DNA of 38,635 bases from an uncultured Burkholderiales bacterium. Lineage in GTDB: Bacteria > Pseudomonadota > Gammaproteobacteria > Burkholderiales > Burkholderiaceae_C. The translations under genes were made by a program, and so were the position numbers. Positions within the stretch are counted from its first letter, which is position 1, and the number at the start of each line of letters is the position of its first letter. Positions 6,360 to 22,522 of the stretch are shown piece after piece. Location of the stretch: positions 1 through 38,635 of the forward strand of contig CAIMTJ010000032.1 in NCBI GenBank assembly GCA_903844385.1, given 5' to 3'. Under the pieces are notes generated by a model. It was not told the DNA's origin. It searched no databases and saw only the letters and a program-made list of their open reading frames with translations.

Positions 6360-6421
6360 GGAATTTCTTTTGATGACAGGCTGTTCGGGGGTGAGCCGCA
6401 TGGGGTGCTCAATGCAAGGCA

Positions 6422-6940
6422 TCAAGCGGTGGTGTTGATTTTTCCACCCAGCCCCAAAATCGATGAAGCGCTGGGGTTGGAAGGGGGCTGGTAGGCACTG
6501 GTGTTGGCTGCATTGGCTGTCTGTAGGGCAGTCTCTGCGGTGTTCTTGGAGCCTGTGAGCAAAGTGGTCAAGCTGTTGAGTGGATTGTTCGGCGTGGCCG
6601 ACTGGGATGCTGTAGGTGCCTTGCCACCATGCACGTGTTTACCATTCTTGGCTTGCAAGGCCACTGCAATGGCCTGGGCGCTTTTTAAATCCCCCTTTTG
6701 AAGGGCAGCGCCAATTTGTGAAATGGGCGAGTGGGAGTTGGTGATTTTGTCAGTACCGGCTTGGCCACTCGACGCGGCGCTTGCGAGGTTGGAGAACGCG
6801 CTTTGAGCGCCCGCGAGGTCGCCTGCGCTCAAACTGGCAAACAGGGCTTGGGAGCTTTGTTGGCGCTGTTGAAGCGCTGCCGTGTTGCTGCTCGCCTGCG
6901 CGGCCCAGGTGTTGTTGGATGATCCGACACGCATACCCAT
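6422..6940 (-). CDS. Ala/Ser-rich hypothetical protein
   Basis: A 172-residue protein without a recognisable catalytic domain. It contains two similar helical segments of the type SAGDLAGAQSAFSNL (about 38-52) and QKGDLKSAQAIAVAL (about 80-94). These resemble a repeat found in small Burkholderiales proteins built of (K/S)GDLxxAQxA units. The rest is low-complexity Ser, Ala, Asn and Thr. There is no signal peptide. A GAGGA Shine-Dalgarno lies about seven bases before the ATG, so translation is likely. It lies 62 bases upstream of the Bug gene on the same strand. Function unknown. Confidence 0.7.
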   Translation of the reverse strand: MGMRVGSSNNTWAAQASSNTAALQQRQQSSQALFASLSAGDLAGAQSAFSNLASAASSGQAGTDKITNSHSPISQIGAALQKGDLKSAQAIAVALQAKNGKHVHGGKAPTASQSATPNNPLNSLTTLLTGSKNTAETALQTANAANTSAYQPPSNPSASSILGLGGKINTTA

Positions 6941-7758: not shown

Positions 7759-8961
7759 ATGAATAATCGTCGCGAATTTATCTCTCAAACCGCCTTGGCG
7801 GCTTCTTCGATGGCATTTCCTTTGATTGGTGGTGCTCAGGCCAAAACCGTCAAAGTCGGTGTGCTGCACCCTGTGACCGGTGCCTTGGCTTACTCGGGTC
7901 AACAATGCCGCGAAGGCGCCTTGATGGCCATTGAAGACATCAATCAAGCGGGGGGCATCAAGTCCTTGGGCGGCGCCAAGATTGAGGCCTTGCTCGGTGA
8001 CGCTCAGTCCACACCCCAAGGCGGTTCGGCCGAGGTTGAGAAAATGAACGAAGCGGGGGTGTGTGCCGTGGTGGGGGCATTTGCCTCGGCCATTTGCTTG
8101 GCCACCACCCAAACCGCGGCCAAGTACAACCTGCCCCATATTGTGGATGTGGGCGTGGCCGATCAAATTGTGGAGCGCGGACTCAAGAATACCTTTCGTT
8201 TTGGGCCTGGCTATAAAAAATGCGCCGAAGTGGCAGTTGCCAACTTGCACGTCTTGAATGTGGCCGCTGGCAAGCCCGCTCGCTCGGTCATGATCATCCA
8301 CGAGGAGTCCTTGTTTGGCACCGGCACGGCCAATTTGCTGTCCAAAGAACTGCCCGGTTATGGCTACGACATCAAAGAAATCGTCAAGCACCCCAACCCC
8401 AGTCGGGATTTCAACAACATTGTGCTACGCATGAAGCAAATCAACCCCGATATTGTGATTCCTGCCAATTACTACAACGAGTACGCGCTTCTCGTTCGCA
8501 CCATGCAGCAGCAGCAAGTCGTGCCCAAAGCCATTTACTCGGTCTTGGGTGGTGCAGCATCGAGCTATAAATTCGTCAAAGAGTACCCCCAGGCCGCCAA
8601 TGGCATCATTGACTGCAACCATTGGTTCAACCCCAAGGACAAAAAAGCCCAAGCGCTTAAAAAACGCGCCGAGGCCAAGGGCCTGTTCTTTAGCTACGAG
8701 TTGTTCATGACGTACACCGCCATGACGCTGCTTGCCGACGCTTTGGAGCGCGCCAAGTCAACCGACCGTGCCGCCATCATTGACGCCTTGAACAAGAGCC
8801 AGTTCTCTGGCCACATCATGCCCTATGGCACCACCCAATTCGTCAACGGTCAAAACATGGGTGCACAGCCCTTGATGACCCAAGTGGTCAAGGGCGACAT
8901 CAAGGTGATCGTGCCCCGTGAGTACCGTGAGGTGGAGGCCATTTTCCCATTGCACGCCTAA
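7759..8961 (+). CDS. Liv-type ABC transporter substrate-binding protein
   Basis: A 400-residue periplasmic binding protein of the type I (LivK/AmiC/UrtA-like) fold. The N-terminus NNRREFISQTALAASS resembles a twin-arginine signal, followed by a hydrophobic stretch and AQA cleavage near residue 29. The mature part starts KTVKVGVLHPVTGALAYSGQQCREGALMAIEDIN, typical of receptors for branched amino acids, short amides or urea, and continues with VVGAFASAICLATTQTAAKY. GGAG lies seven bases before the ATG. As first gene of the block it is followed by both permeases and both ATPases after a 160-base gap. The ligand is not predictable; the downstream HyuAB genes suggest an amide, cyclic amide or carboxylate. 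Confidence 0.9.
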   Translation: MNNRREFISQTALAASSMAFPLIGGAQAKTVKVGVLHPVTGALAYSGQQCREGALMAIEDINQAGGIKSLGGAKIEALLGDAQSTPQGGSAEVEKMNEAGVCAVVGAFASAICLATTQTAAKYNLPHIVDVGVADQIVERGLKNTFRFGPGYKKCAEVAVANLHVLNVAAGKPARSVMIIHEESLFGTGTANLLSKELPGYGYDIKEIVKHPNPSRDFNNIVLRMKQINPDIVIPANYYNEYALLVRTMQQQQVVPKAIYSVLGGAASSYKFVKEYPQAANGIIDCNHWFNPKDKKAQALKKRAEAKGLFFSYELFMTYTAMTLLADALERAKSTDRAAIIDALNKSQFSGHIMPYGTTQFVNGQNMGAQPLMTQVVKGDIKVIVPREYREVEAIFPLHA

Positions 8962-9121
8962 GCGGCGGCTGGGGGCTTGGTGAGCGCGATGGGCGTGTCT
9001 GAAGTCGCCAAAAACCCTTTGAGTGCCTCTCACCCAGGCTTGTCGTCTAGGGTGGGGTGGTGCGGCGTGGTCTTTGTGTCGTCTGAGTCCATTGGGGCTT
9101 GATCGTTAAAGGTGGCTGTCC

Positions 9122-9994
9122 TTGTTTGATCTGGGTATTGTGTTGTCGAGTGTGTTGAATGGACTCACCATGGGTGCGGTCTATACCCTCATTGCTTTGG
9201 GACTGACGTTGATCTACGGGGTGCTGCACATCATCAACTTCGCCCATGGCGCAGCACTCATGATGGCGCTTTTTGCGGTCTATGGATTGAACCAGTTTTT
9301 CGGACTCGATCCGTATGCCAGCATCGCCATCGTGGTGCCTGCCATGTTTGTCTTTGGGTACACCTTGCAGCGTTTTGTCATTGAGCGTGCCAGTCATGAG
9401 CGCGATGAAAATATTTTGCTCGTCACCTTGGGCGTCTCCATTGTGATGGAGAACTTGGCCTTGATCCTTTTTCATTCCGACACGCGAAGCATCGACAGCG
9501 GCTACACCTTGAGCACGGTGACTATTTTGGGGTGCGTCTTGGCCCGCGCCAAGGTGATCGCCTTTGTGGGGGCGATGGTGGTCTCGGCCCTGTTGGTGGT
9601 GTTGATTCAAAAAACCGATTTGGGTCGTGCCATTCGCGCCGTTGCCAAAGAAAAGCAAGGTGCTCGATTGATGGGCATCAACGTCGAGCATGTGTATGCC
9701 ATGAGTTTTGGCATCGGCATGGCCAGTTTGGGCGCTGCGGCTGCCTTTTTGTTGCCCTCCTTTTATGTCAACCCGACGGTTGGCAACGGTTTTGTGTTGG
9801 TGGCCTTCACCATTGTGGTGTTGGGGGGAATGGGGAGTTTCTTGGGCGCTTGGGTGGGCGGCTTGCTCGTGGGTGTGGTGGAGTCGGTGGGGGGGCTCTT
9901 TTTAGGGGATTCGTTGGGGCAGGCGGGGATTTTTTTGATCTTCATCGTGGTGCTGCTCTTTCGGCCCCAGGGTCTTTTTGGAGCCAAGACGTGA
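9122..9994 (+). CDS. livH: LivH-type ABC transporter permease
   Basis: A 290-residue inner-membrane permease with eight or so hydrophobic helices and the LivH signatures NGLTMGAVYTLIALGLTLIYGVLHIINFAHGAALM (about 12-46) and VVLGGMGSFLGAWVGGLLVGVVE near the C-terminus. It forms the membrane channel with LivM. The start is TTG at 9122: AAAGGTGG sits six bases upstream, and the first residues MFDLGIVLSS lead straight into helix 1. A 160-base gap separates it from the receptor gene. Its TGA overlaps the GTG of livM as GTGA. Confidence 0.93.
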   Translation: MFDLGIVLSSVLNGLTMGAVYTLIALGLTLIYGVLHIINFAHGAALMMALFAVYGLNQFFGLDPYASIAIVVPAMFVFGYTLQRFVIERASHERDENILLVTLGVSIVMENLALILFHSDTRSIDSGYTLSTVTILGCVLARAKVIAFVGAMVVSALLVVLIQKTDLGRAIRAVAKEKQGARLMGINVEHVYAMSFGIGMASLGAAAAFLLPSFYVNPTVGNGFVLVAFTIVVLGGMGSFLGAWVGGLLVGVVESVGGLFLGDSLGQAGIFLIFIVVLLFRPQGLFGAKT

Positions 9995-11067
9995 AAGATC
10001 TGCGCTGGATTGTCGTGTTTGCCCTGGTGGTGGGTTTGCTGCCGGTGGTGTCGCACTCGGGTGTCTTTTTGAACTGGCTCATGATGGCCCTCTTTGCCAC
10101 CTTGCTGTCGCAAGCTTGGAACGTCTTGGGCGGGTATGCAGGCCAGTTCTCTTTTGGTCACGCGGTCTTTTTTGGCACTGGCGCCTATGCCCAAGCGTTG
10201 TTGCAGCTGAGCGCGGGCGTGAACCCTTGGGTCGCCTTGGTGGGCGCGGTGTTGATCTCAGCGTCCTTGGGTGCAGGCTTGGCGGCGGTGTCGTTTCGCT
10301 ATGGGCTCAAAGGGTCTTATTTCGCCTTGGTGACCTTGGCCTTTGCCGAGGTGTTTCGCATCTTGGCCTTGAGTGCGAACTTCACCGGTGGTGGGGTGGG
10401 CTTGATGCTGCCCTTGTCGGAGTCGCTGGGCAATATGCAATTTGCCTCGCGCGCGGGCTATATATGGCTGATTTTGGCCTGGGTGGTGCTGGCGCTCCTG
10501 GTCACTGCTTTCTTGCGCCAATCGCGCTTTGGCGCCTATGCCCAAGCGGTGCGAGACAATGAAGATGCCGCCACAGCGTTGGGCGTGAACCCTTTTGCAA
10601 TCAAGTGCTGGGCCACGGTGTTGTCGGCTGCGTTGATGGGCGCGGGTGGTGCGTTTTATGTGCAAGTGTTTCAATACATCGACCCCAATTTGGTCTATGG
10701 CTCGCACACCTCCGTGGCTGCGTTGGTGGGCGCCATTGTGGGCGGCATGGGCACGCTTTGGGGGCCGGTGGTGGGTGCCATGGCCTTGGAGTTGCTCGCT
10801 GAGCTCACGCGCAATTTGTTTGGCGAGTTGCCAGGCATCAATTTGATGGTCTATGGCGCCTTGCTGATCCTCATCATGGTGTTCTTGCCCCGAGGACTGG
10901 TGGGATTGAAAGACCGCTGGCAAGGCCAGAAAAAGAGCCAACGCCGTCTGCTGTCTGCGCCCCACACCGAGATGGCGCCGCTGGGGCTGGTGCCACGTGC
11001 TTCACCGCCCATGACGGCTTCTGGCGAGATGACGCCCCAAGGCCAAGGACACAGCGATGTTGCTTGA
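9991..11067 (+). CDS. livM: LivM-type ABC transporter permease
   Basis: The second permease of the importer, 358 residues. I place the start at GTG 9991, overlapping the livH stop (GTGA). The open frame extends upstream, but that part only shadows livH. The protein starts KDLRWIVVFALVVGLLPVV and has the LivM motif WNVLGGYAGQFSFGHAVFFGTGAYAQALL (about 40-70). Conserved AVRDNEDAATALGVNPFAIK and GGMGTLWGPVVGAMALELL segments follow near the C-terminal half. A tail of about 45 polar residues follows the last helix and is longer than usual. It overlaps livG by 11 bases. Confidence 0.92.
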   Translation: MKDLRWIVVFALVVGLLPVVSHSGVFLNWLMMALFATLLSQAWNVLGGYAGQFSFGHAVFFGTGAYAQALLQLSAGVNPWVALVGAVLISASLGAGLAAVSFRYGLKGSYFALVTLAFAEVFRILALSANFTGGGVGLMLPLSESLGNMQFASRAGYIWLILAWVVLALLVTAFLRQSRFGAYAQAVRDNEDAATALGVNPFAIKCWATVLSAALMGAGGAFYVQVFQYIDPNLVYGSHTSVAALVGAIVGGMGTLWGPVVGAMALELLAELTRNLFGELPGINLMVYGALLILIMVFLPRGLVGLKDRWQGQKKSQRRLLSAPHTEMAPLGLVPRASPPMTASGEMTPQGQGHSDVA

Positions 11068-11824
11068 ACTCAGAGGCGTTTACCGCTCATTTGGCGGTTT
11101 AAAGGCCGTGCAGAACTTGAGTTTGCAAGTGCCTGAAAACTCACTCAGTGCGCTCATTGGCCCCAATGGGGCGGGCAAGACCACGGTGTTTTCATTGATG
11201 TCGGGGTTTTTAAAACCCGACCAAGGTCAAGTGTTCTTCATGGGCAGGGACATCACGGGACTGCCCGCCCACGAGTGTGCCAAGCTCGGGCTCACCCGAA
11301 CCTTTCAAATCGTGCAGCCCTTTGCCAGCCAGACGGTGAGAGAGAACATTGCGGTGGGCGCGCATTTGCATTTGAAGTCGCGCACCGACGCGCTCGCCTA
11401 CGCCAGTGATGTGGCGGCGCAAGTCGGCCTGGCGGGTCTTTTGGATCAACCCGCGCGTGAGCTCACGGTGGCTGCACGAAAGCGCTTGGAGTTGGCCCGT
11501 GGGCTGTCCACGCGACCCTCCTTGTTGTTGCTCGATGAGGTGTTGGCTGGTTTGAACCCGCAAGAGATCGCCGAGATGCTGCCGGTCATCCGTGGCATTG
11601 TCGAGTCTGGCGTGAGTGTTCTCATGATTGAACACGTGATGCAAGCGGTCATGAATTTGGCGCGTCACGCTTGGGTCCTCTCTCAAGGGGAGTTGATTTT
11701 TGCGGGACCCACGAAATTGCTCAGCCACGACCCAGCGGTGATCGAGGCCTATTTTGGTGTGGCGGGTGCGGCCAAATTGCGCCAAGTTCAAAATCGAGTT
11801 CAAGAGCAGGGGGACAACGCATGA
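11057..11824 (+). CDS. livG: LivG-type ABC transporter ATPase
   Basis: A 255-residue ATP-binding subunit. Walker A is GPNGAGKTT (35-43), followed by the LivG-specific LTRTFQIVQPF segment. Walker B is LLLLDEVLAGLNP. The signature helix reads ELTVAARKRLELARG instead of LSGGQ; this degenerate C-loop is usual for this LivG branch and is not a defect. H is present in MIEHVMQAVM (switch). It pairs with LivF to power import through LivHM. The ATG lies inside the end of livM, and its TGA overlaps the livF ATG as ATGA. Confidence 0.94.
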   Translation: MLLELRGVYRSFGGLKAVQNLSLQVPENSLSALIGPNGAGKTTVFSLMSGFLKPDQGQVFFMGRDITGLPAHECAKLGLTRTFQIVQPFASQTVRENIAVGAHLHLKSRTDALAYASDVAAQVGLAGLLDQPARELTVAARKRLELARGLSTRPSLLLLDEVLAGLNPQEIAEMLPVIRGIVESGVSVLMIEHVMQAVMNLARHAWVLSQGELIFAGPTKLLSHDPAVIEAYFGVAGAAKLRQVQNRVQEQGDNA

Positions 11825-12531
11825 GCGAGTTGCTCCAAGTCACCGACTTGTCCTCAGGATACGGGGCGGTGCAGATTTTGCGCGATGTGCATTTGACACT
11901 TCACACTGGCGAGTTGGTGGCGCTCTTGGGCAGCAACGGGGCGGGCAAGACCACGCTCAACCACACCCTTTGTGGGCTCGTGCGCGCCCAAAGTGGCCAA
12001 GTGCTCTTTAACGGTCAAGACCTCACCCATGCGCACTACAGCGACGTGGTGCGTGCTGGCTTGATACAAGTTCCCGAGGGGCGAAAAATTTTCCCCAACA
12101 TGAACGTGTTGGACAATTTGCTGCTGGGCGCTTACACACTTCCCCAGTCGCTTCGCCCAGATTTGCTCGAGCGGGTCTTGAAGACTTTTCCACGACTCGC
12201 TGAGCGGCTCACGCAAATGGCGGGCACCTTGAGTGGGGGTGAGCAGCAAATGTTGGCCATCGGGCGAGGGCTCATGGCGGCGCCCAAGCTGTTGATTTTG
12301 GATGAGCCCTCACTGGGCCTGTCTCCAAAGCTCGTGCAAGAGATGTTTGACTTGATCGTGCAGCTCAAGGACGAGGGGCTCACGATACTGCTCGTTGAGC
12401 AAAACGTGGGGCAGTCCTTGGACGTGGCCTCGCGCGCCTATGTGCTGGAGAACGGTCAGATTCGTTTTAGCGGCTCGCCTGAGGACTTGCTCGCCAGTGA
12501 CGTGATGCGCCAAGCGTATCTGGGCGCATGA
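11821..12531 (+). CDS. livF: LivF-type ABC transporter ATPase
   Basis: The second ATPase, 236 residues from the ATG that overlaps the livG stop. Walker A is GSNGAGKT (37-44), LSGGEQQ signature at 137-143, and Walker B LLILDEPSLGL with D161 and E162. The LivF segment IQVPEGRKIFPNMNV is present (usually VPEGRxxFPxLTV). The open frame extends upstream to 11671 but only in antiphase to livG, so that part is rejected. It ends 16 bases before the Bug gene, which has its own strong ribosome-binding site. Confidence 0.94.
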   Translation: MSELLQVTDLSSGYGAVQILRDVHLTLHTGELVALLGSNGAGKTTLNHTLCGLVRAQSGQVLFNGQDLTHAHYSDVVRAGLIQVPEGRKIFPNMNVLDNLLLGAYTLPQSLRPDLLERVLKTFPRLAERLTQMAGTLSGGEQQMLAIGRGLMAAPKLLILDEPSLGLSPKLVQEMFDLIVQLKDEGLTILLVEQNVGQSLDVASRAYVLENGQIRFSGSPEDLLASDVMRQAYLGA

Positions 12532-12547
12532 TGGAGGAGGTATCAAC

Positions 12548-13633
12548 GTGAAAGAAGACAGCATGCTCAGTTTTGATCATCACACCCGGGCCCGCTCGGG
12601 TCTGTGGGGGGGGAGACGTATCAATCGCCCAGTGCAACCCCTGTGCCAATGGGGCCAGACTTTAGGGCGCGTGGCGGCAAACTTGATTGGGCTGGCGCTG
12701 ACTGTTGTGCTTGGCTTTTGTGTTCTCCCGGCTCGGGCTCAATCGACGCCTGCGCCTGTGCGCATTTTGGTGGGTGCACCCGCTGGTGGCACCACCGACA
12801 CGATGGCACGCGCTCTCGCGCAAGCCCTCTCGCAGCAGTGGTCGCGTGTGGTGCTTGTGGAAAACCGCACGGGAGCGGGAGGCAATGTGGCGGCTGAAGC
12901 GGTGGCGCGCGCTGCACCCGATGGGCTCACCTTGCTCATGAGTTTTACCTCACACGCCATCAATGCCTCGCTTTACCCCCACTTGCCCTTTGATCCGATC
13001 AAGGACTTCACCCCCATCACCATGGTCTCCACCTCGCCCTCGATCCTGGTGGCGCACCCCTCCTTGGGGGCCAACACCTTGCCCGAGCTCATCGCCTTGG
13101 CCAAGGCGCAACCGGGTAAATTGAATTTCGCCATCGGCGCGCTGGGGTCTTCCTTGCATTTGGCAGGCGACGCCTTCAAGCTCAAAGCCGGCGTGAACAT
13201 TGTCAATGTGCCCTACCGGGGCACGGCACCGGCCATCCAAGACGTGCTCGCTGGGCAAGTGGAATTGATGTTTGCCAACATTGGCAACGCGCAGCAGTAC
13301 TTGGCCGTGGGCAAGCTCAAGGCCTTGGGGGTCACGTCCCCCAAGCGACTCGCGGCCTTCCCCCAAGTGCCCAGCATGGCCGAGACCTTGCCAGGCTTTG
13401 AGTCGAGTGCGTGGTTTGGACTCTTTGGGCCCGCCAAAATCTCCCCCGAGCTCTTGGCTCGCTTGGAGTCGGGTGCACGCACTGCCATCTTGACACCCGA
13501 GGTCAAGCAGCGCATCGAGGCCGAAGGGGCGAGCGCTGTGGCCAACAGTTCGGCAGAATTTGCACAGTTCTTGGCCGCTGACATTGCGCGTTGGCGCGAG
13601 GTGGTGAAGTTCTCTGGGGCCAAACCAGAATGA
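12548..13633 (+). CDS. Bug/TctC-family periplasmic binding protein inside the ABC block
   Basis: A 361-residue Bug receptor. GGAGGAGG (12533-12540) seven bases before the GTG fixes the start. An unusually long n-region of about 40 residues precedes the signal helix ANLIGLALTVVLGFCVLPARAQ. The mature part begins VRILVGAPAGGTTDTMARALAQAL, the Bug ligand loop, with LNFAIGALGSSLHLAGDAFK and NVPYRGTAPAIQDVLAGQVELMF further on. No TctAB subunits are present. It lies between the complete ABC importer and the LeuCD-like genes, so it may bind the same or a related carboxylate. Its TGA overlaps the next ATG as ATGA. Confidence 0.92.
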   Translation: MKEDSMLSFDHHTRARSGLWGGRRINRPVQPLCQWGQTLGRVAANLIGLALTVVLGFCVLPARAQSTPAPVRILVGAPAGGTTDTMARALAQALSQQWSRVVLVENRTGAGGNVAAEAVARAAPDGLTLLMSFTSHAINASLYPHLPFDPIKDFTPITMVSTSPSILVAHPSLGANTLPELIALAKAQPGKLNFAIGALGSSLHLAGDAFKLKAGVNIVNVPYRGTAPAIQDVLAGQVELMFANIGNAQQYLAVGKLKALGVTSPKRLAAFPQVPSMAETLPGFESSAWFGLFGPAKISPELLARLESGARTAILTPEVKQRIEAEGASAVANSSAEFAQFLAADIARWREVVKFSGAKPE

Positions 13634-14988
13634 TGAACCCCGCTCAAGGCTCTGCCCACGCGCCGACAGCGTCAGATACCCTGGCGCGCACCCAGCCCAT
13701 CACCACTGCGCCCCCAAGCTCACCTCAAAGCTTGGCGCAAAAACTCATTGCCCGCGCATCGGGGCGCTCGAGCGTGGAGGTGGGGGCTTTGCTCAATTGC
13801 CAGGTTGACTTGGCCATGTTCCATGACTCCTCGGGCCCCAGGCGCTTGGCGCCGATGCTCAAAGAACTCGGTGCGAGCATTTGGGACAAGAACAAAGTGG
13901 TCTTGGTGATGGATCACTATGTGCCCGCCCGCGATGAAGAGTCCAGCGCCATTGTGGCGCTCGCGCGTGAGACGGCCAAAGCGTGGAAATTGCCCCACGT
14001 GATCGACTCTGAAGGCATTTGTCATGTGGTGCTGCCAGAGCGGGGGCATTTGAAGCCAGGCATGTTTTGTGTGGGGGGCGACTCGCACTCACCCACCGGG
14101 GGCGCTTTTGGCAGTTATATGTTTGGCATTGGTGCCACAGAAATGCTGGGGGTGGTGGTGAGCGGTGAAATTTGGCTCGAAGTGCCCCAGACCATTGCGC
14201 TCAATTGGACGGGCGAACTCGCACGGGGTGTGTGCGCCAAGGACATGATGCTGCACATGATTGCTGAGCTCGGGCTCAATGGTGGTCAATACCAAGCGCT
14301 CGAATACACCGGTGAGGTGGTCCAAGGTTTGTCCATGCAAGAGCGCATGACCCTCTCCAATATGGGCGCGGAGATGGGCGCGCAGGCCGCTTTGGTGGCG
14401 GCCGATCAAGTCACGGTCGACTATTTAATCGGGGTGGGTGTTGAGCCGCAAGCCCTCGAGGGCTGGAGCGCTTGGAGCAGTGACGCGGGTTCACACAGCC
14501 AAACGCTTCACTTTGATGCCCACACGTTGGCGCCGCAAATTGCCGCACCACACTCGCCTGCACTGACACGCGCCGTGACCGAGTTCGCTCCAACCCCGGT
14601 TGATATTGCCTACATTGGGGCCTGTACTGGGGCGAAACTCGTCGATTTGCGCGCCGCCGCGAGTGTGCTCAAGGGACACCGCGTGCACGCTCAAACCCGC
14701 TTGCTGGTGGCGCCTGCGAGCGCGCGTGACCAAGAGGCTGCCCGAGCCGAAGGCACGCTCCAAGTGTTGCTCGACGCGGGTGCACAGTTGCTGCCCAACA
14801 GTTGTGGCGCGTGTGCTGGTTACGGCGCAACGTTTGAAGAAGGCATGACCGTGATCTCCAGCACGGCTCGCAACTTCAAAGCTCGCATGGGCCCAGCGAG
14901 TGTTCAGGTCTATTTGGGCTCGCCCTACAGTGTGGCAGCAGCGGCCATCCAAGGACGGCTTGCCGATGTGCGCGAGATCCTCGCATGA
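13630..14988 (+). CDS. LeuC-like aconitase-family hydro-lyase, large subunit
   Basis: A 452-residue [4Fe-4S] hydro-lyase subunit. The three cluster cysteines are C332, C392 and C395, with the spacing (60, then 3) seen in isopropylmalate isomerase LeuC. MDHYVPA, GICH and GDSHSPTGGAFGSYMFGIG correspond to the family's conserved histidine and glycine motifs. The segment that is normally GSCTNSR reads GACTGAK here, so the usual Asn and substrate-binding Arg are changed. A true LeuC role is therefore unlikely. The nearest functional analogy is dimethylmaleate or maleate/citraconate hydratase (LeuCD-like enzymes of catabolism). The start is ATG 13630, overlapping the Bug stop; its own stop overlaps the small-subunit start. 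Confidence 0.9.
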   Translation: MMNPAQGSAHAPTASDTLARTQPITTAPPSSPQSLAQKLIARASGRSSVEVGALLNCQVDLAMFHDSSGPRRLAPMLKELGASIWDKNKVVLVMDHYVPARDEESSAIVALARETAKAWKLPHVIDSEGICHVVLPERGHLKPGMFCVGGDSHSPTGGAFGSYMFGIGATEMLGVVVSGEIWLEVPQTIALNWTGELARGVCAKDMMLHMIAELGLNGGQYQALEYTGEVVQGLSMQERMTLSNMGAEMGAQAALVAADQVTVDYLIGVGVEPQALEGWSAWSSDAGSHSQTLHFDAHTLAPQIAAPHSPALTRAVTEFAPTPVDIAYIGACTGAKLVDLRAAASVLKGHRVHAQTRLLVAPASARDQEAARAEGTLQVLLDAGAQLLPNSCGACAGYGATFEEGMTVISSTARNFKARMGPASVQVYLGSPYSVAAAAIQGRLADVREILA

Positions 14989-15512
14989 GCGAGTCATCGA
15001 GCGCCTTAACGCCCTGGTCGCGAGTGTGGCGACTAGGCTCCCAAGTGGACACGGACGCCTTGGCGCCTGGGGCCTACATGAAGTTTGGCATCGAGGTGAT
15101 TGCCCAGCACGCTCTCGAGTCCATGCGCGCAGACTTTGCCAGCGGTGTTCAAGTGGGCGACGTCATCGTGGCCGGTGAGGGCTTTGGGGTGGGCTCGTCT
15201 CGCGAGCAAGCCGCGGGTGTTTTGGTGCAGTTGGGCCTCAAGGCCGTGATCGCGCCGTCATTCAGCGGTTTGTTTTACCGCAACGCCTTCAATTTGGGCT
15301 TGCTGCTGTTGACTTGTCCGCGTGCCACTGAGATCGAGGAGGGCTGTGCGGTGCAAGTGCACCCCCAGGGGATTCAAATCCAAGGCGGGGACTTGTTGCC
15401 GGTGAAGCCCATACCGGAGTTTTTGCTCGAGATGGTGCGCGCCAAGGGTCTCTTGAATGTGCTCAAAGCGCGCATCGAATCGGGCCAAATCAAAACCACG
15501 CGAGAGGGTTGA
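14985..15512 (+). CDS. LeuD-like aconitase-family hydro-lyase, small subunit
   Basis: The 175-residue swivel-domain partner of the preceding gene. It has VDTDALAPGAYMKFG near the start and GEGFGVGSSREQAAGVLVQLGLKAVIAPSFSGLFYRNAFNLGL, where GSSRE is the substrate-binding motif of LeuD and aconitase domain 4. Usual LeuD reads GSSREHA; here the His is Gln. The ATG overlaps the large-subunit TGA, as expected for subunits made in equal amount. The two should form one hydratase or isomerase acting on a di- or tricarboxylate; context favours catabolism. Confidence 0.9.
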   Translation: MSESSSALTPWSRVWRLGSQVDTDALAPGAYMKFGIEVIAQHALESMRADFASGVQVGDVIVAGEGFGVGSSREQAAGVLVQLGLKAVIAPSFSGLFYRNAFNLGLLLLTCPRATEIEEGCAVQVHPQGIQIQGGDLLPVKPIPEFLLEMVRAKGLLNVLKARIESGQIKTTREG

Positions 15513-15597
15513 GTGGGCCCGCTGTGCGATGGTCGTGCAGCTGGGTGTGGTTGAGGTGGCTATTTTTTTTGTTCGTTTTTTTTCGTTGAGGTTTGTC

Positions 15598-15615
15598 ATG
15601 AGTGTTTTGCAATGA
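15598..15615 (+). CDS. Five-codon leader frame overlapping the hyuB start
   Basis: ATG AGT GTT TTG CAA TGA encodes MSVLQ. GAGG (15588-15591) lies six bases before its ATG, while hyuB itself has no Shine-Dalgarno at a normal distance. The TGA overlaps the hyuB ATG as ATGA. Ribosomes loaded here would terminate exactly on the hyuB start, so this may be a loading leader for hyuB. It could also be chance, with hyuB starting from another codon. Confidence 0.35.
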   Translation: MSVLQ

Positions 15616-17333
15616 GTGCCTTGAATTCCCCCTCTCGTGCTGCCGGGTCACCCGCCTTGGACCCCGTGACCTTGGCGGTGTTGGCGGGGAGGCTCGAGCA
15701 AATTGCCGATGAGATGGACGCCACGCTTTACCGCAGTGCCTTTAACCCCATCATTGCCGAAGCCCATGATGCCTGCCATGGCCTCTATGATGCCCTCACG
15801 GGGGACACCTTGGTGCAAGGCAAATCGGGTTTGCCGATTTTTGTCGGCGTCATGGCCTTTGCCGTGCGTGCGGCAGCCCGCGTGGCAAGCGAGCGCGGCG
15901 GCATGCAGCCCGGCGACACCTGGCTCTTTAACGACCCCTACGAAGGCGGCACCCACGCCAATGACTTCAAGTTGGTGAGGCCTTACTTCAAGGATGGGGT
16001 ATTGTTTTGTTACCTGGCGTCGGCCGCGCATTGGCACGATGTTGGGGGTGCGGTGCCAGGCAACTACAACCCAGCGGCCACCGAATGCTGGCAAGAGGCG
16101 GTACAAATCCCGCCTGTTCGCATCATCAAGAACGGGGAGCTGCAAGAGGATGTGCTGGCGATTTTGCGCGCCAACACCCGACTGCCCGATAGCCTTTGGG
16201 GCGACTTGAATGCCCAACTCGCAGCGCTCGATTTGGGGGTCACGAGACTCAATGCTTTGCTGATTGACTACGAGCAAAGCGCTGTGTTGAAGGCCTTTGC
16301 TGCGCTCAGACGCCGCGCCCTCATGTTGATGCGCGAGCACATCCAAGTCCTGCCCAGTGGCGTGTACAGCTTTGACGATATTCTCGACAACGATGGGGTG
16401 GTCGATGAGCCGCTGAGCATTGCGCTGGATTTGCGCATTGAGGGTGAGCGCTTGAGTTTGGATTTTTCACGCTCTTCGCCCCAATGTGCGGGCCCTGTCA
16501 ATATCTCGCGCGCGACCGCTGTGGCGGCGTGCTATGTCGCCTTAAAGCATGTGTTTCCCGATGTGCCGGCCAATGCGGGCGTGCTCGATGCGGTGGAGTT
16601 CATCATCCCAGACGGTTTGGTGATCAGTTGTGAGCGACCCCGGCCCGTGGGGGGCTACACCGAGACGATTTTGCGCATGATCGATGTGATTTTCTCGGCC
16701 ATGGCGCAAGCCGCTCCCGAGCGGGTAGTGGCCCATGCCTATGGCACCATCAACGCCTTGTCCATCGCGGGCTACAAAACCCTCAGTCCCGGGCAGCGCC
16801 GGCCTTGGGTGATGTTCAGCTTCTTTGGTGGCGGGCACGGTGGCCACGCCCATGGCGACGGACTCAGCCACGCCAATGCCCCCATCTCCACAGCGACCAT
16901 TCCACCGCTCGAGATTTTGGAGGCCGCTTATCCGGTCATGTTCACAAAGTGGGCTTTGAGACCTGACTCGGGGGGAGTGGGCCAATACCGTGGGGGCTTG
17001 GGCGCGATTTATGAAATCGAGTTGCTTGAAGAGTCCGCCCAGGCCTTCATCTTTGGCGAGCGTGCCCGCTCCGGCCCCAAAGGCATTGCAGGTGGGGGCA
17101 GTGGCGCACTCAATGTCTTTGAGTACCAGCAAGGCAGCCAATGGCTCATCCCACCAATGGGCGCCAAGATGAGGGGCATTGAATTGAAACGCGGTGAGAG
17201 AGTGCGCTTGTCCACACCGGGCGGTGGGGCTTGGGGCTTGGGAGCAAAGCGCGACCATCAAGCCCACGCCCACGATGTGGCCATGGGGTATGTGAGTGCG
17301 CCGCCCCCTCTAAAAGCGGGAGATGCGCCATGA
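15612..17333 (+). CDS. hyuB: HyuB: hydantoinase B/oxoprolinase family subunit
   Basis: A 573-residue protein of the HyuB family. Visible motifs are RSAFNPIIAEAHD, LFNDPYEGGTHANDFKLVRP, HWHDVGGAVPGNYNP, the glycine/histidine-rich FFGGGHGGHAHGDGLSHAN and GGVGQYRGGLG. Together with HyuA it forms ATP-dependent hydrolases (N-methylhydantoinase, 5-oxoprolinase, caprolactamase) or carboxylases (acetone/acetophenone carboxylase). Without the carboxylase gamma subunit nearby, a hydrolase is more likely. Length is normal. A 99-base gap precedes it, with a T-rich stretch and a five-codon frame that ends on its start codon. Its TGA overlaps the hyuA ATG. Confidence 0.92.
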   Translation: MSALNSPSRAAGSPALDPVTLAVLAGRLEQIADEMDATLYRSAFNPIIAEAHDACHGLYDALTGDTLVQGKSGLPIFVGVMAFAVRAAARVASERGGMQPGDTWLFNDPYEGGTHANDFKLVRPYFKDGVLFCYLASAAHWHDVGGAVPGNYNPAATECWQEAVQIPPVRIIKNGELQEDVLAILRANTRLPDSLWGDLNAQLAALDLGVTRLNALLIDYEQSAVLKAFAALRRRALMLMREHIQVLPSGVYSFDDILDNDGVVDEPLSIALDLRIEGERLSLDFSRSSPQCAGPVNISRATAVAACYVALKHVFPDVPANAGVLDAVEFIIPDGLVISCERPRPVGGYTETILRMIDVIFSAMAQAAPERVVAHAYGTINALSIAGYKTLSPGQRRPWVMFSFFGGGHGGHAHGDGLSHANAPISTATIPPLEILEAAYPVMFTKWALRPDSGGVGQYRGGLGAIYEIELLEESAQAFIFGERARSGPKGIAGGGSGALNVFEYQQGSQWLIPPMGAKMRGIELKRGERVRLSTPGGGAWGLGAKRDHQAHAHDVAMGYVSAPPPLKAGDAP

Positions 17334-19444
17334 GCTCGACTCCCAAACCCGCCGTGAAGTCCAACGTGATTGTGGGGGTGGACGTCGGCGGCACATTCAC
17401 CGACCTTTTTGTTCTCGATTGGGGGGATCATCCCCAAGCCCACATCATCAAAGTCCCCTCCACTCGAGGCCAAGAGGCGCAAGGTTTCATGCGCGGTGTG
17501 AAAGCAGTTCACGATGCGCTCCACCCCAAGGGCGAGCATGAACAGCCCCGCGGCTTGGCCGCCTCCATCACGACCTTGGTGCATGGCACCACAGTGGCCA
17601 CCAATGCGCTGCTCGAGCGCAAAGTCGCCAAGACCGGGCTCATCACCACACGTGGCTTTCGCGATGTGCTGGAGATGCGTCGCAGGGATCGCGCGCAAAC
17701 CTGGGGGCTCAAGGGCAGTTTTGTGCCCATCATCCCCAGAGATTTGAGGCTCGAAGTCGACGAGCGCGTGCTCGCCTCGGGCGAGATCCACACCGAGGTC
17801 AACATCGAGCAAGTGCGCACCCAAGCCCAGCACTTGTTGGCACAAGGCTGTGAGGCCATTTGTGTGTTTTTTATCAACGCTTACGCCAACCCCCTCAATG
17901 AGCTGCGCGCCAAAGCCTGCATTGAGGAGTTTTGGCCCAACGCGCATGTGAGTGTGGCCACACAAGTGTTGCCCGAAATTCGGGAGTTTGAGCGCTGCTC
18001 CACGGCGAGCTTGAACGCCGCTTTGCAGCCGGTGGTGGGGGGCTATTTGTCGAGCTTGGAGAGTGCCTTGGGGCAAGAGGGGTTCTTGGGCGAGCTCTTG
18101 ATTGTGCAAAGCAATGGGGGCGTGATGTCGGCCTCCACCGCTGGCGAGTTCCCCGTTCGCACGGCGCTCTCGGGTCCTGCTGCGGGTGTGATCGCGTGTG
18201 CGGAAATCGCCAAAGTGGCAGGTTTCCCCAATGTCATCACGGGTGACATGGGAGGCACGAGCTTTGATGTGTCCTTGGTCGCGCAAGGCCAAGCGGCTTT
18301 GGCCTCGCAGACCGCCATCGAGTTTGGTCTCGTGGTGAGGTCTCCCATGATTCAGATCGAGACCATTGGTGCCGGCGGGGGCTCCATCGCGTGGGTCGAT
18401 ACAAGCGGCATGCTTCAAATTGGCCCCGAGTCAGCGGGCTCGAACCCGGGTCCAGCGTGCTATGGGCGCGGCAACAAGCGAGCAACCGTCACCGATGCCA
18501 ATGTGCTGCTCGGGCGCATTGCGGCGCACCGCCCTTTGGGGGGCGGGGGCTTGAAGCCCTTGAGTGTCGAGTTGGCGCGCGAGGCGGTGGAGTCGAGTGT
18601 GGCCACGCCCTTGGGGCTTGATGTCTACCGTGCGGCCGAAGCCATTCTCACCTTGGCCAACGCCAAAATGGCGGGCACCATTCGCTTGGTCTCCATTGAA
18701 AGAGGCCACGACCCCAGGCTCTTTGCCTACATGCCGTTTGGCGGAGGGGGGGCACTGCATGTGTGCGCCTTGATGCGTGAAGTGGGTGTGAGTGTGGGAC
18801 TCATTCCGCGCTACCCAGGGGTCACCTCGGCGCTCGGTTGTGTGCTCTCGGACATGAAGCACGATGCGGTGCAGACTTTGAACAAGGGCTTGGCCGATCT
18901 GGATATCGCAGACTTGCAAGAAAAGGTCGCGCGATTGCGCCAACTTTGCCAGGCGCGACTCGATGCGTCGGGCATTGTGTTCACGCGCATCGTGGAGACG
19001 GTGGTGCTCGATATGCTCTACCAAGGTCAAACCCACACCGTGGCGGTGCCCATTGAGGCAGACGACTACAGCCACGAGGGCCTGCTCAAGGCGTTTGAGC
19101 GCACCTATCATGCGCAATTTGGCCGCACCTTGAGTGGACCTGCGGTGCGGGTGCTCAATTTGCGTTATTCCCGCGTGGGCGAGCGCGCCAAATTCGATTT
19201 GTCGATTTTGGCACCCCAAAGCAAGGTGGTGCCCGAGGTGCTGGGCCATGAGCGGATTTTTCACCAAGGTGAGTGGCTCTCTGTGCCGCGCAGTGCGCGA
19301 CTCGATTGGCCCGTGGGCTCCAAGGTGGTGGGGCCTGCCATGCTCGAGCAAGCCGATACCACCATTTGGCTCGAACCGGGGTTTCAAGCGCGGGTGGACG
19401 AGTGGGGCAATTTGCTCTTGAGCCGAGGGGAGACGCCCGCATGA
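17330..19444 (+). CDS. hyuA: HyuA: ATP-binding hydantoinase A/oxoprolinase subunit
   Basis: A 704-residue partner of HyuB. It has the sugar-kinase/Hsp70-like nucleotide fold: phosphate-1 motif VGVDVGGTFTDLFVLD with D18 and T22, HGTTVATNALLERK, phosphate-2 GDMGGTSFDVSLV and GGGSIAWVD. It phosphorylates or activates the substrate with ATP so that HyuB can open a lactam, imide or hydantoin ring. I start it at ATG 17330, where ATGA overlaps the hyuB stop, and reject the 33 extra upstream codons of the open frame. The stop overlaps the next gene as ATGA. The exact substrate is unknown. Confidence 0.93.
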   Translation: MSSTPKPAVKSNVIVGVDVGGTFTDLFVLDWGDHPQAHIIKVPSTRGQEAQGFMRGVKAVHDALHPKGEHEQPRGLAASITTLVHGTTVATNALLERKVAKTGLITTRGFRDVLEMRRRDRAQTWGLKGSFVPIIPRDLRLEVDERVLASGEIHTEVNIEQVRTQAQHLLAQGCEAICVFFINAYANPLNELRAKACIEEFWPNAHVSVATQVLPEIREFERCSTASLNAALQPVVGGYLSSLESALGQEGFLGELLIVQSNGGVMSASTAGEFPVRTALSGPAAGVIACAEIAKVAGFPNVITGDMGGTSFDVSLVAQGQAALASQTAIEFGLVVRSPMIQIETIGAGGGSIAWVDTSGMLQIGPESAGSNPGPACYGRGNKRATVTDANVLLGRIAAHRPLGGGGLKPLSVELAREAVESSVATPLGLDVYRAAEAILTLANAKMAGTIRLVSIERGHDPRLFAYMPFGGGGALHVCALMREVGVSVGLIPRYPGVTSALGCVLSDMKHDAVQTLNKGLADLDIADLQEKVARLRQLCQARLDASGIVFTRIVETVVLDMLYQGQTHTVAVPIEADDYSHEGLLKAFERTYHAQFGRTLSGPAVRVLNLRYSRVGERAKFDLSILAPQSKVVPEVLGHERIFHQGEWLSVPRSARLDWPVGSKVVGPAMLEQADTTIWLEPGFQARVDEWGNLLLSRGETPA

Positions 19445-20076
19445 GCATGCCAAACGCTGACCCTCGCTACGCCTTGTTGATCGTGGATCTTCAAAACGAT
19501 TTTCTCCACCCCCAGGGTGCTTATGCCCGGGGCAAGACCACGAGCGAAGAGGCGGCGGCGCTGCCCGCGCGCATTCGCCCACTGGCCCAGGCGATCAAAG
19601 CGCGAGCTCAAGGCTTGGTGTGCGCGTCCTTGTTCACCTTGTGGCCCAACGCGGCCGGTGAGCCCATGGTCTCGCCGCACTTGCTGGCCAAGCGGGGCTT
19701 TTTAAAGAAGGGCGACTTCGCGCCCGGCTCTTGGGGGCAATCGGTGGTGGATGAGTTAAAGGACACGGTCGATGTTTGTGTGCAAAAGGTGGCCTACTCG
19801 GCGTTTTTCAACACCCAGCTCGACTGGGTCCTTCGCCGCTCTGGCGTCAACACCCTGGTGGTGTGCGGCATTGTGACCAATGGCGGCGTGGCCAGCAGTG
19901 TGCGAGACGCCCATGTGCGCGACTATGACACCGTGGTGCTCTCGGACGGGTGTGCCGCGTTTTCTGCTTCGCAGCACCAAGCCGCCTTGGACGACATGGC
20001 CAGCGTGGCCGAGGTGATGAGCTGCTCTGAGTGGTTGAGCCGCTTGGCGCAGTCCACTGGCCTGGATCACCACTAA
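19441..20076 (+). CDS. Isochorismatase-fold hydrolase lacking the catalytic cysteine
   Basis: A 211-residue protein of the isochorismatase-like superfamily. D16 (in LLIVDLQNDF) and K116 (VQKVAYSAF) occupy the catalytic Asp and Lys positions. The expected Cys, 33 residues after the Lys, is Gly149 in GIVTNGGVASSVRDAH. Amidases of this fold, such as N-carbamoylsarcosine amidohydrolase or maleamate amidase, use that Cys. Isochorismatase itself has Gly there and cleaves a vinyl ether. The enzyme may thus not be a Cys amidase in spite of its hyuBA neighbours. The ATG overlaps the hyuA stop; a 19-base gap separates it from the FAD enzyme. Confidence 0.88.
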   Translation: MSMPNADPRYALLIVDLQNDFLHPQGAYARGKTTSEEAAALPARIRPLAQAIKARAQGLVCASLFTLWPNAAGEPMVSPHLLAKRGFLKKGDFAPGSWGQSVVDELKDTVDVCVQKVAYSAFFNTQLDWVLRRSGVNTLVVCGIVTNGGVASSVRDAHVRDYDTVVLSDGCAAFSASQHQAALDDMASVAEVMSCSEWLSRLAQSTGLDHH

Positions 20077-20095
20077 AGACAAAGGGGAGCGTTTC

Positions 20096-21574
20096 ATGGT
20101 GGCCGATGCATTGACACCCGTTGTGATTCACGTCCCCCACGAGGCCCAATGGGGTGCTGGTGAGGGCCGTGTGGGACCGCTTCTGGGCGCCCCTCATTTC
20201 CCTGTGGTGATTGTGGGCGCGGGCGCGTGTGGGCTCACCGCTGCGCTCATGCTGCAAGGCCAGGGCGTGCCCAGTTTGTTGCTCGAGCGTGACGACCATC
20301 CGCAAGGCTCGAGTGCGCTGTCGTCAGGTTTTGTGCCCGCTGCGGGCACCTTGTGCCAAGCGCGCCAAGGCATCGTTGACAGTCAGGCGCAATTTATCCA
20401 AGATATTGTTCACAAAAACCATGACCAATCGCCCCTGCATTTGGTTCAGGCCTATGTGCAGGCGGTACCCCAGGCCATTGATGCCTTGGAGACCCTGCAT
20501 GGTGTGCCTTGGCGAGTGCTGGATCATTTTTTATACCCCGGCCACAGCATTCACCGCATGCATGCAGTCCCCGAGACCTCGGGGGAGGGCTTGATGGCGC
20601 GGCTCATGCATGCCGCTCAGGTGGCTCAGGACCAGGTGACGGTCTTGACCTCAGCGCGGGTCACACAACTCTACGTGGATCCGGACCAACGCGTGGTGGG
20701 CCTGGGCTATGTCCGTCCTGACGGATCACAAGAGTGGGTGCGCGCTCACGCGGTCTTGCTCGCGAGCAACGGCTTTGGGGGCAACACCGAATTGGTGGCC
20801 CAGCACCTGCCGGCCATGAAGCATGCGGTCTATGCTGGCCATGCCGGCAACGACGGCTCGGCAGTGCTGTGGGGACAAGCCTTGGGTGTCAAGCTCCTCG
20901 ATATGGGGGCCTACCAAGGGCACGGATCTTGGCAGCCTGAATTGGGTCTGTTGATGTCATGGGCTTTGATGGGCGAGGGCGGTATTCAAATCAATCAACA
21001 AGGTGTTCGCTTTCATGACGAATCCCAGGGCTACTCCGAGGCCAGTGTGGGCGTGTTGGCCCAACCGGGCTCACGCGCTTGGTGTGTGTTTGACACCCCT
21101 GTGTTTGAATTGGGTCTGGGGTTTCCGGAGTTCAAACAGGCCAAGGCTTTGGGCGGCATCAAGCGCTTTGACTCGGTGAGTGCATTGGCGGCGTGGGTGG
21201 GCTGCCCGCTGGAGAATCTAGAGCGCACGCTCCAAGGGCTGGCCAATGAGGGTGAAAGTGCTGCAGCACCTTTGAGCGCTTTGTCTCGGCCATTGGCGCC
21301 CCCCCTTTATGCGGTGCAAGTCACGGGCGCTTTGTTTCACACCCAAGGCGGTCTTGACATCGACGCGCACTGCCGAGTGCTCACCAGCGCTGGGGCGCCG
21401 CTACCCAATTTATGGGCCGCCGGTGGTGCAGCGCGTGGCGTGTCTGGCCAAGAGGTCTGGGGCTATTTGTCAGGCAACGGTTTGCTCAGTGCCTTGGCCG
21501 GTGGCTTCATTTCCGCTCAAAGCATAGCGAAGGCCTTGGGCCAGGCCCCAGCGGCAGGCGCAGCGTTGGCGTGA
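20096..21574 (+). CDS. FAD-dependent dehydrogenase of the fumarate reductase family
   Basis: A 492-residue flavoprotein. The dinucleotide motif VVIVGAGACGL (G41, G43, G46) follows an unusual 35-residue N-terminal extension, with the ribose-binding Glu in LLLERDD. NLWAAGGAARGVSGQEVWGYLSGNGLL is the C-terminal FAD closure, as in fumarate reductase, 3-ketosteroid dehydrogenase and tricarballylate dehydrogenase. Such enzymes insert or remove a C=C bond next to a carboxylate or ketone. AAAGGGGAG lies about six bases before the ATG. In this block it could supply the unsaturated substrate for the LeuCD-like hydratase. Its TGA overlaps a possible GTG start of a 22-codon frame. Confidence 0.87.
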   Translation: MVADALTPVVIHVPHEAQWGAGEGRVGPLLGAPHFPVVIVGAGACGLTAALMLQGQGVPSLLLERDDHPQGSSALSSGFVPAAGTLCQARQGIVDSQAQFIQDIVHKNHDQSPLHLVQAYVQAVPQAIDALETLHGVPWRVLDHFLYPGHSIHRMHAVPETSGEGLMARLMHAAQVAQDQVTVLTSARVTQLYVDPDQRVVGLGYVRPDGSQEWVRAHAVLLASNGFGGNTELVAQHLPAMKHAVYAGHAGNDGSAVLWGQALGVKLLDMGAYQGHGSWQPELGLLMSWALMGEGGIQINQQGVRFHDESQGYSEASVGVLAQPGSRAWCVFDTPVFELGLGFPEFKQAKALGGIKRFDSVSALAAWVGCPLENLERTLQGLANEGESAAAPLSALSRPLAPPLYAVQVTGALFHTQGGLDIDAHCRVLTSAGAPLPNLWAAGGAARGVSGQEVWGYLSGNGLLSALAGGFISAQSIAKALGQAPAAGAALA

Positions 21575-21639
21575 AATTTGAAGCGAATTTTGCAATGAAT
21601 TTTGCAGTGTATTTAGCAATGAGTTTTTTGTTTTTTTAG
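21571..21639 (+). CDS. Candidate 22-residue membrane micro-protein
   Basis: A GTG overlaps the stop of the FAD enzyme as GTGA and opens a frame of 22 codons ending in TAG at 21637-21639. After MKFEA the peptide is almost wholly hydrophobic and aromatic, ending SFLFF, and could span or line a membrane. The DNA is made of three 12-base repeats (21586-21621), giving NFA-M, NFA-V and YLA-M. The next CDS starts 14 bases later. The same overlap type is used by genuine neighbours (livH/livM). Small size and repeat origin leave open that this is only a spacer. Confidence 0.35.
   Translation: MKFEANFAMNFAVYLAMSFLFF
21586..21621 (+). repeat. 12-base tandem repeat, three copies
   Basis: AATTTTGCAATG, AATTTTGCAGTG and TATTTAGCAATG follow one another, with a partial fourth (AGTTTTTT). 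The unit is a multiple of three, so copy-number change would keep the micro-ORF in frame. The stretch is far richer in A and T than the flanking genes. Confidence 0.7.
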
Positions 21640-21652
21640 GACTGGATCATTC

Positions 21653-22522
21653 ATGACTTCCATCACACTCAAGGACCGACTCCAGCGCCCCGAGGTCTTG
21701 CTTGCCCCCGGTATTTATGACGCATTGAGCGCTTTGGTGGCCGAGCAAGCGGGTTTTGAGGCTTTGTATTTGTCGGGGGCTTCGATTGCTTACACCCGTT
21801 TGGGTCGAAGTGATGTGGGTTTGGTGACGGCCAGCGAGGTCGCGCAAACGATTGGCCTGGTGTGTGAGCGCGTGAGTTTGCCCGTCATCGTGGATGCGGA
21901 CACTGGATTTGGCAACGCGCTCAACACCCAACGCACGGTGCGGGAGTTTGAGCGCGCGGGAGCGGCCATGATCCAACTCGAGGACCAGACGTTTCCCAAA
22001 CGCTGCGGACACTTGAGCGGCAAAAGCTTGGTGAGCACAGCCCACATGCGCGGCAAGTTGATGGCCGCCTTGGATGCCAGACGCAGCGCAGACACCCTCA
22101 TTTTGGCCAGAACCGACGCCATTGCGGTGGAGGGCTTCACCGCGGCCCTGGAGCGAGCCCAAGCCTACCTCGAGTGCGGCGTGGATGCACTCTTCATTGA
22201 GGCGTTCAAAGACCAGGCGCAAATGCGTGAGGCCTGTGGCCATTTTGCCCCTCACTTGCCGCTCTTGGCCAATATGGTGGAGGGTGGACAAACCCCCGTT
22301 CAAAGTGCCCATGAGTTGGGGGCCTTGGGGTTCAAGATGGTGATTTTTCCAGGCGGCACGGCCAGAGCCGTCACCCACACCCTGCAGGCCTACTACCAGA
22401 GCCTCAAAACCCACCAAACCACCGCACCCTTTCAGCGCCAGATGCTCGACTTTGAGGGCTTGAATGCGGTCATTGAAACCCCCGCGCTTTTAAAGACCGG
22501 TCTTCGCTACGATTTGGAATAG
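21653..22522 (+). CDS. Isocitrate lyase/PEP mutase superfamily lyase (KRCGH type)
   Basis: A 289-residue protein of the methylisocitrate lyase/2,3-dimethylmalate lyase/PEP mutase group. Metal ligands are D81 and D83 in DADTGFGN, with E110 and D111. The gating loop holds KRCGH (116-120) with the acid-base Cys118 typical of C-C lyases; PEP mutase lacks this motif. ARTDA and FPGGTARA segments are also conserved. The expected reaction is retro-aldol or retro-Claisen cleavage of a 2-hydroxy or 3-hydroxy dicarboxylate, giving pyruvate or glyoxylate plus a carboxylate. AGGA is visible 13 bases upstream, rather far. As last gene of the block it is the natural end of the pathway. Confidence 0.9.
   Translation: MTSITLKDRLQRPEVLLAPGIYDALSALVAEQAGFEALYLSGASIAYTRLGRSDVGLVTASEVAQTIGLVCERVSLPVIVDADTGFGNALNTQRTVREFERAGAAMIQLEDQTFPKRCGHLSGKSLVSTAHMRGKLMAALDARRSADTLILARTDAIAVEGFTAALERAQAYLECGVDALFIEAFKDQAQMREACGHFAPHLPLLANMVEGGQTPVQSAHELGALGFKMVIFPGGTARAVTHTLQAYYQSLKTHQTTAPFQRQMLDFEGLNAVIETPALLKTGLRYDLE

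Follow-up and report, generated by a model that had tools for sequence, protein, structure and literature searches.

A conserved thirteen-gene block of a Burkholderiales bacterium as a candidate pathway for the degradation of a cyclic amide

In this study we describe a block of thirteen genes in a stretch of DNA of 38,635 nucleotides, here called the window, from an uncultured Burkholderiales bacterium (contig CAIMTJ010000032.1 of assembly GCA_903844385.1). The block (7759-22522, + strand) joins a Liv-type ATP-binding cassette (ABC) importer and a TctC/Bug-type receptor to a LeuCD-like hydro-lyase, the ring opener HyuBA, an isochorismatase-like protein (Isoch), a flavin adenine dinucleotide (FAD) dehydrogenase and a PrpB-like C-C lyase. 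From sequence comparisons we propose that it may be an operon for the catabolism of a cyclic amide. A five-membered imide of the succinimide or maleimide type is the likeliest substrate, a reading to which we give a probability of about 0.5. A preliminary description had listed a compact same-strand block of these families, and all of them were found.

Results

Conservation of the gene block

LeuC-like matches with E <= 1e-60 were present in 43 of 299 genomes of the family, with 33 genomes (host included) at 48% identity or more. At E <= 1e-100 they were present in 20 of 399 genomes of the order and 11 of 398 genomes of the phylum, in two overlapping samples that both include the host. The closest named loci came from Burkholderiales and Comamonadaceae bins and from Limnohabitans, and on this basis we regard the host as Comamonadaceae-like. 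Cultured carriers of the operon include Limnohabitans sp. T6-20 (L093) and Acidovorax sp. Root219 (L103). From 135 loci (L042-L073, L082-L163, L185-L204 and the window) we retained 126 non-redundant ones, dropping those without a LeuC match at 50% identity over 250 residues and those with an identical exact LeuC stretch; near-copies may persist among the 126, and gene presence was scored by tblastn identity thresholds. L074-L081, with LeuC at 32-37%, were left outside the counts. The 89 of 126 loci with at least 5 kb upstream and at least 7.5 kb downstream of LeuC are referred to as well-flanked.

The PrpB-like gene was present in 80 of the 89 well-flanked loci. Liv permease, HyuBA, Isoch, FAD dehydrogenase and PrpB occurred together in 42, and Liv permease, a metal amidohydrolase, FAD dehydrogenase and PrpB in nine. 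PrpB without opener, FAD gene or Liv was found in 19, and the other 19 were spread across eleven further combinations. The set of the 42 loci, together with LeuC and reordered, also occurred in two genomes (L186, L187) that belong to a different family within the phylum. The preliminary description had proposed one conserved catabolic unit and had named genes rarely found together as what would speak against it; the neighbourhood comparison found them often together. Judged from these neighbourhoods, the predicted catabolic unit is real and conserved, and more than a chance association. No description of this gene set turned up in limited searches of the open-access literature, and the block is a new combination of known enzyme families.

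Burkholderiales-like copies of the block were also seen in records titled Akkermansia muciniphila and Singulisphaera (L096, L114), which suggests that these records are mislabelled or mixed bins.

Ring openers

Any of three unrelated cyclic-amide hydrolases was found in 64 of the well-flanked loci. HyuBA was present in 47 of them, with Isoch in 45, alone in one, and with Isoch and a PuuE-like gene in one; the amidohydrolase was present in eleven and a PuuE-like gene in six. Two of the remaining loci carried Isoch only and 23 neither an opener nor Isoch. HyuBA and the amidohydrolase never shared a locus (0/126), and HyuBA and a PuuE-like gene did so once (1/126, L099). The slot between LeuD and the FAD gene was filled by HyuBA and Isoch in one type of locus and by a 490-residue amidohydrolase in another. 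A quick LeuC tree of 106 loci, calculated without bootstrap, required at least 18 changes of the opener label (shuffled mean 47.4) and at least nine among the three opener types alone; its starred branches forced at least seven changes for HyuBA, at least four for the amidohydrolase and at least four for PuuE. Because unrelated openers swap in this way beside one LeuCD family, a cyclic amide is well supported as the predicted input of the operon.

HyuB (15612..17333; PF02538, 1.4e-160) and HyuA (17330..19444; PF01968 and PF05378) are oxoprolinase-type subunits. Among solved structures HyuA was nearest to N-methylhydantoinase (386.6 bits) and 5-oxoprolinase (377.9 bits), and carboxylases scored 157.9-256.6 bits. 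By pattern search the HyuB motif NDPY.GGTH..D was found in 51 of 60 homologues (duplicates kept). HyuBA stayed under the caprolactamase cut-offs NF050156 and NF050157 (504.3 and 264.6 vs 1000 bits). An acetone/acetophenone-type carboxylase was rejected for HyuBA, because such enzymes scored below the hydrolases and a third carboxylase subunit was not recognised among the thirteen genes. Three HyuB-family places, the block's own included, were found in the 2.83 Mb host assembly.

For the amidohydrolase the top models were those of allantoinase, under their cut-offs, and the nearest structures were allantoinase and D-hydantoinase; all five sought motifs were present in 19 of 20 copies, and the remaining copy, which is truncated, had three of the five (duplicates kept). 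The PuuE-like proteins belong to the polysaccharide-deacetylase family. In their first group the best solved hit was PuuE allantoinase, with HpPgdA (3qbu) among the further matches; in a second, more distant group PuuE was a weak match, ranked third. A study of the fungal imidase HxnM gives 64.2% identity to an imide hydrolase homologue of P. putida, a structure resembling HpPgdA, and PuuE as the closest characterised relative of HpPgdA (PMC9304392).

Isoch (19441..20076; PF00857) had RutB, the ureidoacrylate hydrolase, as its best solved sequence match, and its predicted model reached a predicted local distance difference test score (pLDDT) of 91.2. Cys-type amidases of the isochorismatase fold use an Asp-Lys-Cys triad. 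Isoch of the block retains Asp16 and Lys116 and has Gly149 where the catalytic Cys belongs, and in the homologues from the LeuC-selected loci Gly stood at the Cys position (GG at the site), with Asp and Lys kept, in 55 of 55 (duplicates kept). With the triad thus incomplete, ordinary Cys-dependent amide hydrolysis by Isoch is not supported. A Cys-type amidase (IsoC) adjoins the first PuuE-like group in L125, L162, L196 and L202-L204, with its Cys intact in 6/6 (duplicates kept); that of L125 had 4l07, titled maleamate amidase Ami, as best solved match (113.1 bits).

It is possible, if unlikely, that the ring is instead a hydantoin, a dihydropyrimidine or another ureide, which would be opened to an N-carbamoyl amino acid, decarbamoylated by an amidase and deaminated elsewhere, ahead of LeuCD and the lyase. 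The hydantoinase and allantoinase likeness of HyuA and the amidohydrolase would fit such a substrate, as would the RutB match of Isoch and a gene of the hydantoin-racemase family in L099 and L125. However, Isoch lacks the Cys, and family searches recognised no aminotransferase, ammonia-lyase or other deaminating enzyme among the thirteen genes. On grounds of parsimony we prefer an imide, since imide hydrolysis alone yields a C4 diacid, whereas the product from a hydantoin or lactam is an amino acid, which still has to be deaminated.

Hydro-lyase and C-C lyase

The large subunit of the LeuC/aconitase-like hydro-lyase (13630..14988) passed the aconitase/isopropylmalate dehydratase (IPMD) family model NF001614 (474.9 vs cut-off 385 bits) and failed the LeuC model TIGR00170 (cut-off 560.25 bits), which it matched in pieces of 148.5 and 71.4 bits. 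Its nearest solved relative was the isopropylmalate/citramalate isomerase 4nqy. The small subunit (14985..15512) passed the LeuD/DmdB model TIGR02087 (139.3 vs cut-off 108.95 bits). Its YMKF stretch is presumably the substrate loop; by pattern search YMK[LFHNYGM] or YMQH was found in 71 of 131 small subunits (duplicates kept), and many of the other printed loops read AMKH or AMKF. A role in leucine synthesis, which the preliminary description had named as a result that would contradict its pathway, was rejected by sequence, because the host genome has a separate leuC (761.3 bits, over the TIGR00170 cut-off).

The PrpB-like lyase (21653..22522; PF13714, 7e-44) belongs to the isocitrate lyase/phosphoenolpyruvate (PEP) mutase superfamily, whose lyases carry a KKCGH/KRCGH catalytic loop. 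All 104 homologues had KRCGH, and all but one of them had Phe in the D..F.E. motif (duplicates kept in both counts). In E. coli PrpB the Phe at this place faces the substrate methyl, and isocitrate lyase has Trp. This Phe would favour pyruvate as the product. Identity with the PrpB of the methylcitrate cycle was rejected on the score against the best NCBIfam model, prpB (TIGR02317; 278.8 bits, under the cut-off of 354.4). The match to 2,3-dimethylmalate lyase (3fa3) reached 165.8 bits and ranked below several methylisocitrate lyases.

We consider it distinctly unlikely that two unrelated jobs are combined in one operon, amide or lactam use by Liv, HyuBA and Isoch and branched dicarboxylate use by TctC, LeuCD and PrpB. 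Such a division would agree with the 19 of 89 loci that hold LeuCD and PrpB without opener, FAD gene or Liv, and with a second PrpB-LeuC-LeuD-TctC cassette of the host, beside which no opener was recognised. Yet three different openers occur in LeuCD-PrpB loci, and the full set, reordered, is retained in another family of the phylum.

FAD dehydrogenase

The FAD dehydrogenase (20096..21574; PF00890, 3.4e-52) has the fumarate-reductase/ketosteroid-dehydrogenase fold. The matches of its predicted model (pLDDT 88.7) to cyclohexanone and ketosteroid dehydrogenases were approximately tied with those to fumarate reductases (top rows about 1 Z apart), and the predicted fold by itself does not pick between a ketone and a fumarate type. 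Against tricarballylate dehydrogenase TcuA (NF006130) it scored 100.8 bits, short of the cut-off of 369. Enzymes of the fumarate reductase/succinate dehydrogenase type have two substrate-binding arginines (Arg402 and Arg544 in Fcc3). The equivalent positions hold Tyr in all 29 aligned sequences (Tyr313 and Tyr457 in the block), and in the same alignment His276 and His415 of the fumarate-reductase active site are retained. Fumarate-reductase chemistry was rejected for the enzyme, as both substrate arginines are replaced. All 57 well-flanked loci with the FAD gene also had an opener, compared with 7 of the 32 well-flanked loci without it.

That HyuBA opens the ring first and the FAD enzyme then desaturates the free branched dicarboxylate in the manner of succinate dehydrogenase, ahead of LeuCD and the lyase, as the preliminary description had supposed, is improbable in spite of the shared fold and the two kept histidines, because the arginines are lost and no FAD gene lacked an opener among the 89 loci.

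Gene layout and surroundings

The block was delimited by open reading frame calls and family searches of the window. It opens with the periplasmic substrate-binding protein of the Liv importer (7759..8961; Peripla_BP_6, 2.5e-47), which showed 79-87% identity across 16 further loci. The LivH-type (9122..9994, TTG start) and LivM-type (9991..11067, GTG start) permeases follow, both PF02653, and then the LivG-type (11057..11824) and LivF-type (11821..12531) ATPases, both PF00005, whose top NCBIfam models, LivG and LivF, were matched under their cut-offs. The TctC/Bug-type solute receptor (12563..13633; PF03401, 7.3e-71) stands between the importer and LeuC. Six of the twelve junctions overlap by 4 bp (five ATGA, one GTGA) and one by 11 bp; at the other five the genes are 19-160 bp apart. 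An earlier statement that the genes mostly join by ATGA overlaps was thus about half right: seven junctions overlap, but only five of them by ATGA, and five are gaps.

The guanine plus cytosine content of the block is 59.5%, vs 52.1% and 55.9% in the flanks, and the gene after it is a ferrochelatase on the opposite strand. A promoter and terminator scan gave one promoter-like site (3.6 in shuffles) and 24 terminator-like sites (20.5 in shuffles). A plasmid near-match search returned three records, covering 13-14% of the query. On the minus strand of the window, an ApbE-type gene (2628-3581) and an ATP-grasp gene with an L-amino acid ligase C-terminal domain (3757-5256) stand downstream of a TctC-like receptor gene (5355-6425).

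Related modules

A GntR regulator was present in 25 of 41 loci compared; its orthologue was not found in the host assembly (best 32%), which is 88.6% complete. Directly upstream of the regulator, L043 (17266-18837) and L097 carry an AMP-binding gene of the acyl-CoA-synthetase type, with homologues in ten Limnohabitans-type loci, two of them from one contig. AtuA-like genes, in the k22 cluster loci together with DUF4387, stand upstream of the GntR-LeuCD-FAD core in L053, L109, L114, L116, L118, L119 and L126, and the Liv importer of these loci is more distant (about 45-61% identity). The extra modules in other loci comprise MmgE/PrpD, Asp/Glu/hydantoin racemase, AMDase-like, flavin monooxygenase, AtuA with DUF4387, and thiolase with CoA-transferase. 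In view of these accessory modules and of the other host cassettes, the LeuCD-PrpB pair looks like a common endpoint of several putative feeding modules.

The second PrpB-LeuC-LeuD-TctC cassette of the host lies on contig C18 (L216:9570-13603). Its PrpB and LeuC are 40% and 33% identical to those of the block, and its LeuC, at 521.2 bits, is just under the leuC cut-off of 560.25. On contig C58 (L218:206-4811) a TctC gene on the other strand, a flavin monooxygenase, a PrpB-like lyase, a Cys-type isochorismatase amidase (IsoC-like) and a weakly AMDase-like gene adjoin, a group resembling, by its families, another ring-degradation cassette.

Discussion

We propose the following route for a five-membered imide. 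The Liv importer would take up the ring compound, and the FAD enzyme would desaturate it beside a ring carbonyl, as from succinimide to maleimide. HyuBA would then open the ring with ATP; in relatives this step would fall to the metal amidohydrolase or to PuuE-like imidases. Conversion of the half-amide would give a cis, maleate-type C4 dicarboxylate, LeuCD would hydrate the double bond, and the PrpB-like lyase would split the hydroxy-diacid, probably to pyruvate and a carboxylic acid. Minimal relatives, with TctC, LeuCD, PrpB and the GntR regulator, may import the diacid directly. The part of this scheme that the preliminary description had outlined, import and opening of a cyclic amide followed by a LeuCD-like hydro-lyase and a PrpB/dimethylmalate-lyase-like lyase, is supported by the swapping of openers and by the predicted families.

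Several observations weigh against this reading. PrpB is absent from 9 of the 89 well-flanked loci, 23 have neither an opener nor Isoch, and the lyase falls under the prpB cut-off. Isoch without Cys leaves hydrolysis of the half-amide without an assigned enzyme in the block, the amidohydrolase-type clusters had no recognisable amidase, and IsoC also matches N-carbamoylsarcosine amidohydrolase at 102.6 bits, close to its top score. The opener families, partly as their models are named, also use hydantoins, allantoin, dihydropyrimidines and lactams, and the Asp/Glu/hydantoin racemase-family gene of L099 and L125 would suit hydantoins. Seven FAD loci outside the flank criterion show no opener, the FAD gene is missing from the HyuBA loci L124, L136, L163 and L197, and of seven independent tree pairs 4.5 show the gene tracking the opener and none the reverse, which is not significant (p 0.03-0.25).

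A more specific and rather improbable proposal is that the substrates are disubstituted maleimides or succinimides to which tetrapyrroles (chlorophyll, haem, bilins) are degraded by oxidation, for example hematinic acid or methylvinylmaleimide. Their opening would give a 2-methyl-3-substituted maleate, a shape suited to a pair resembling dimethylmaleate hydratase and dimethylmalate lyase, which would yield pyruvate together with another acid, glutarate in the case of hematinic acid. If this were true, the block would let bacteria degrade the last ring fragments that decaying pigments leave in lakes and soil.

For cyclic amides in general, the block may illustrate the recycling of nitrogen-containing ring compounds by bacteria. 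One hydratase-lyase core is apparently fed by three interchangeable, unrelated openers, in many Burkholderiales and, elsewhere in the phylum, in at least one further family. It thus becomes directly testable what class of substrate this widespread cluster uses, and three orphan enzyme sets may share a substrate.

Comparison with known systems

In nicotinate fermentation by Eubacterium barkeri, dimethylmaleate hydratase is followed by 2,3-dimethylmalate lyase. By family membership the block has the same succession of a LeuCD-type hydratase and a lyase of the isocitrate lyase superfamily; it differs in its additional HyuBA, FAD enzyme and Liv importer, and its thirteen genes include neither enamidase nor methyleneglutarate mutase. 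With the methylcitrate cycle (PrpB) and the glyoxylate cycle (isocitrate lyase) it shares an aconitase-family hydro-lyase and a KRCGH-type lyase, but its lyase is under the prpB cut-off and its gene neighbours are others. The HyuA/HyuB architecture is that of ATP-dependent N-methylhydantoinase, 5-oxoprolinase and caprolactamase, whereas HyuBA of the block is linked to LeuCD and a lyase.

Imide opening followed by amide hydrolysis, as described in the HxnM study for the HxnM and P. putida imide hydrolase routes, has counterparts in the PuuE-like and maleamate-amidase-like proteins of the block's relatives; unlike these routes, the block has HyuBA and a following hydratase and lyase, and the HxnM substrate is a six-membered imide (PMC9304392). 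In 3-ketosteroid dehydrogenase (KSTD), according to one report, Tyr487 forms a bond to the keto group and Tyr318 accepts a proton (PMC8220720). The FAD enzyme of the block is only 19-25% identical to 3-ketosteroid and cyclohexanone dehydrogenases, but it shares their fold and has Tyr at both places of the fumarate-reductase arginines, a match to KSTD by residue type only.

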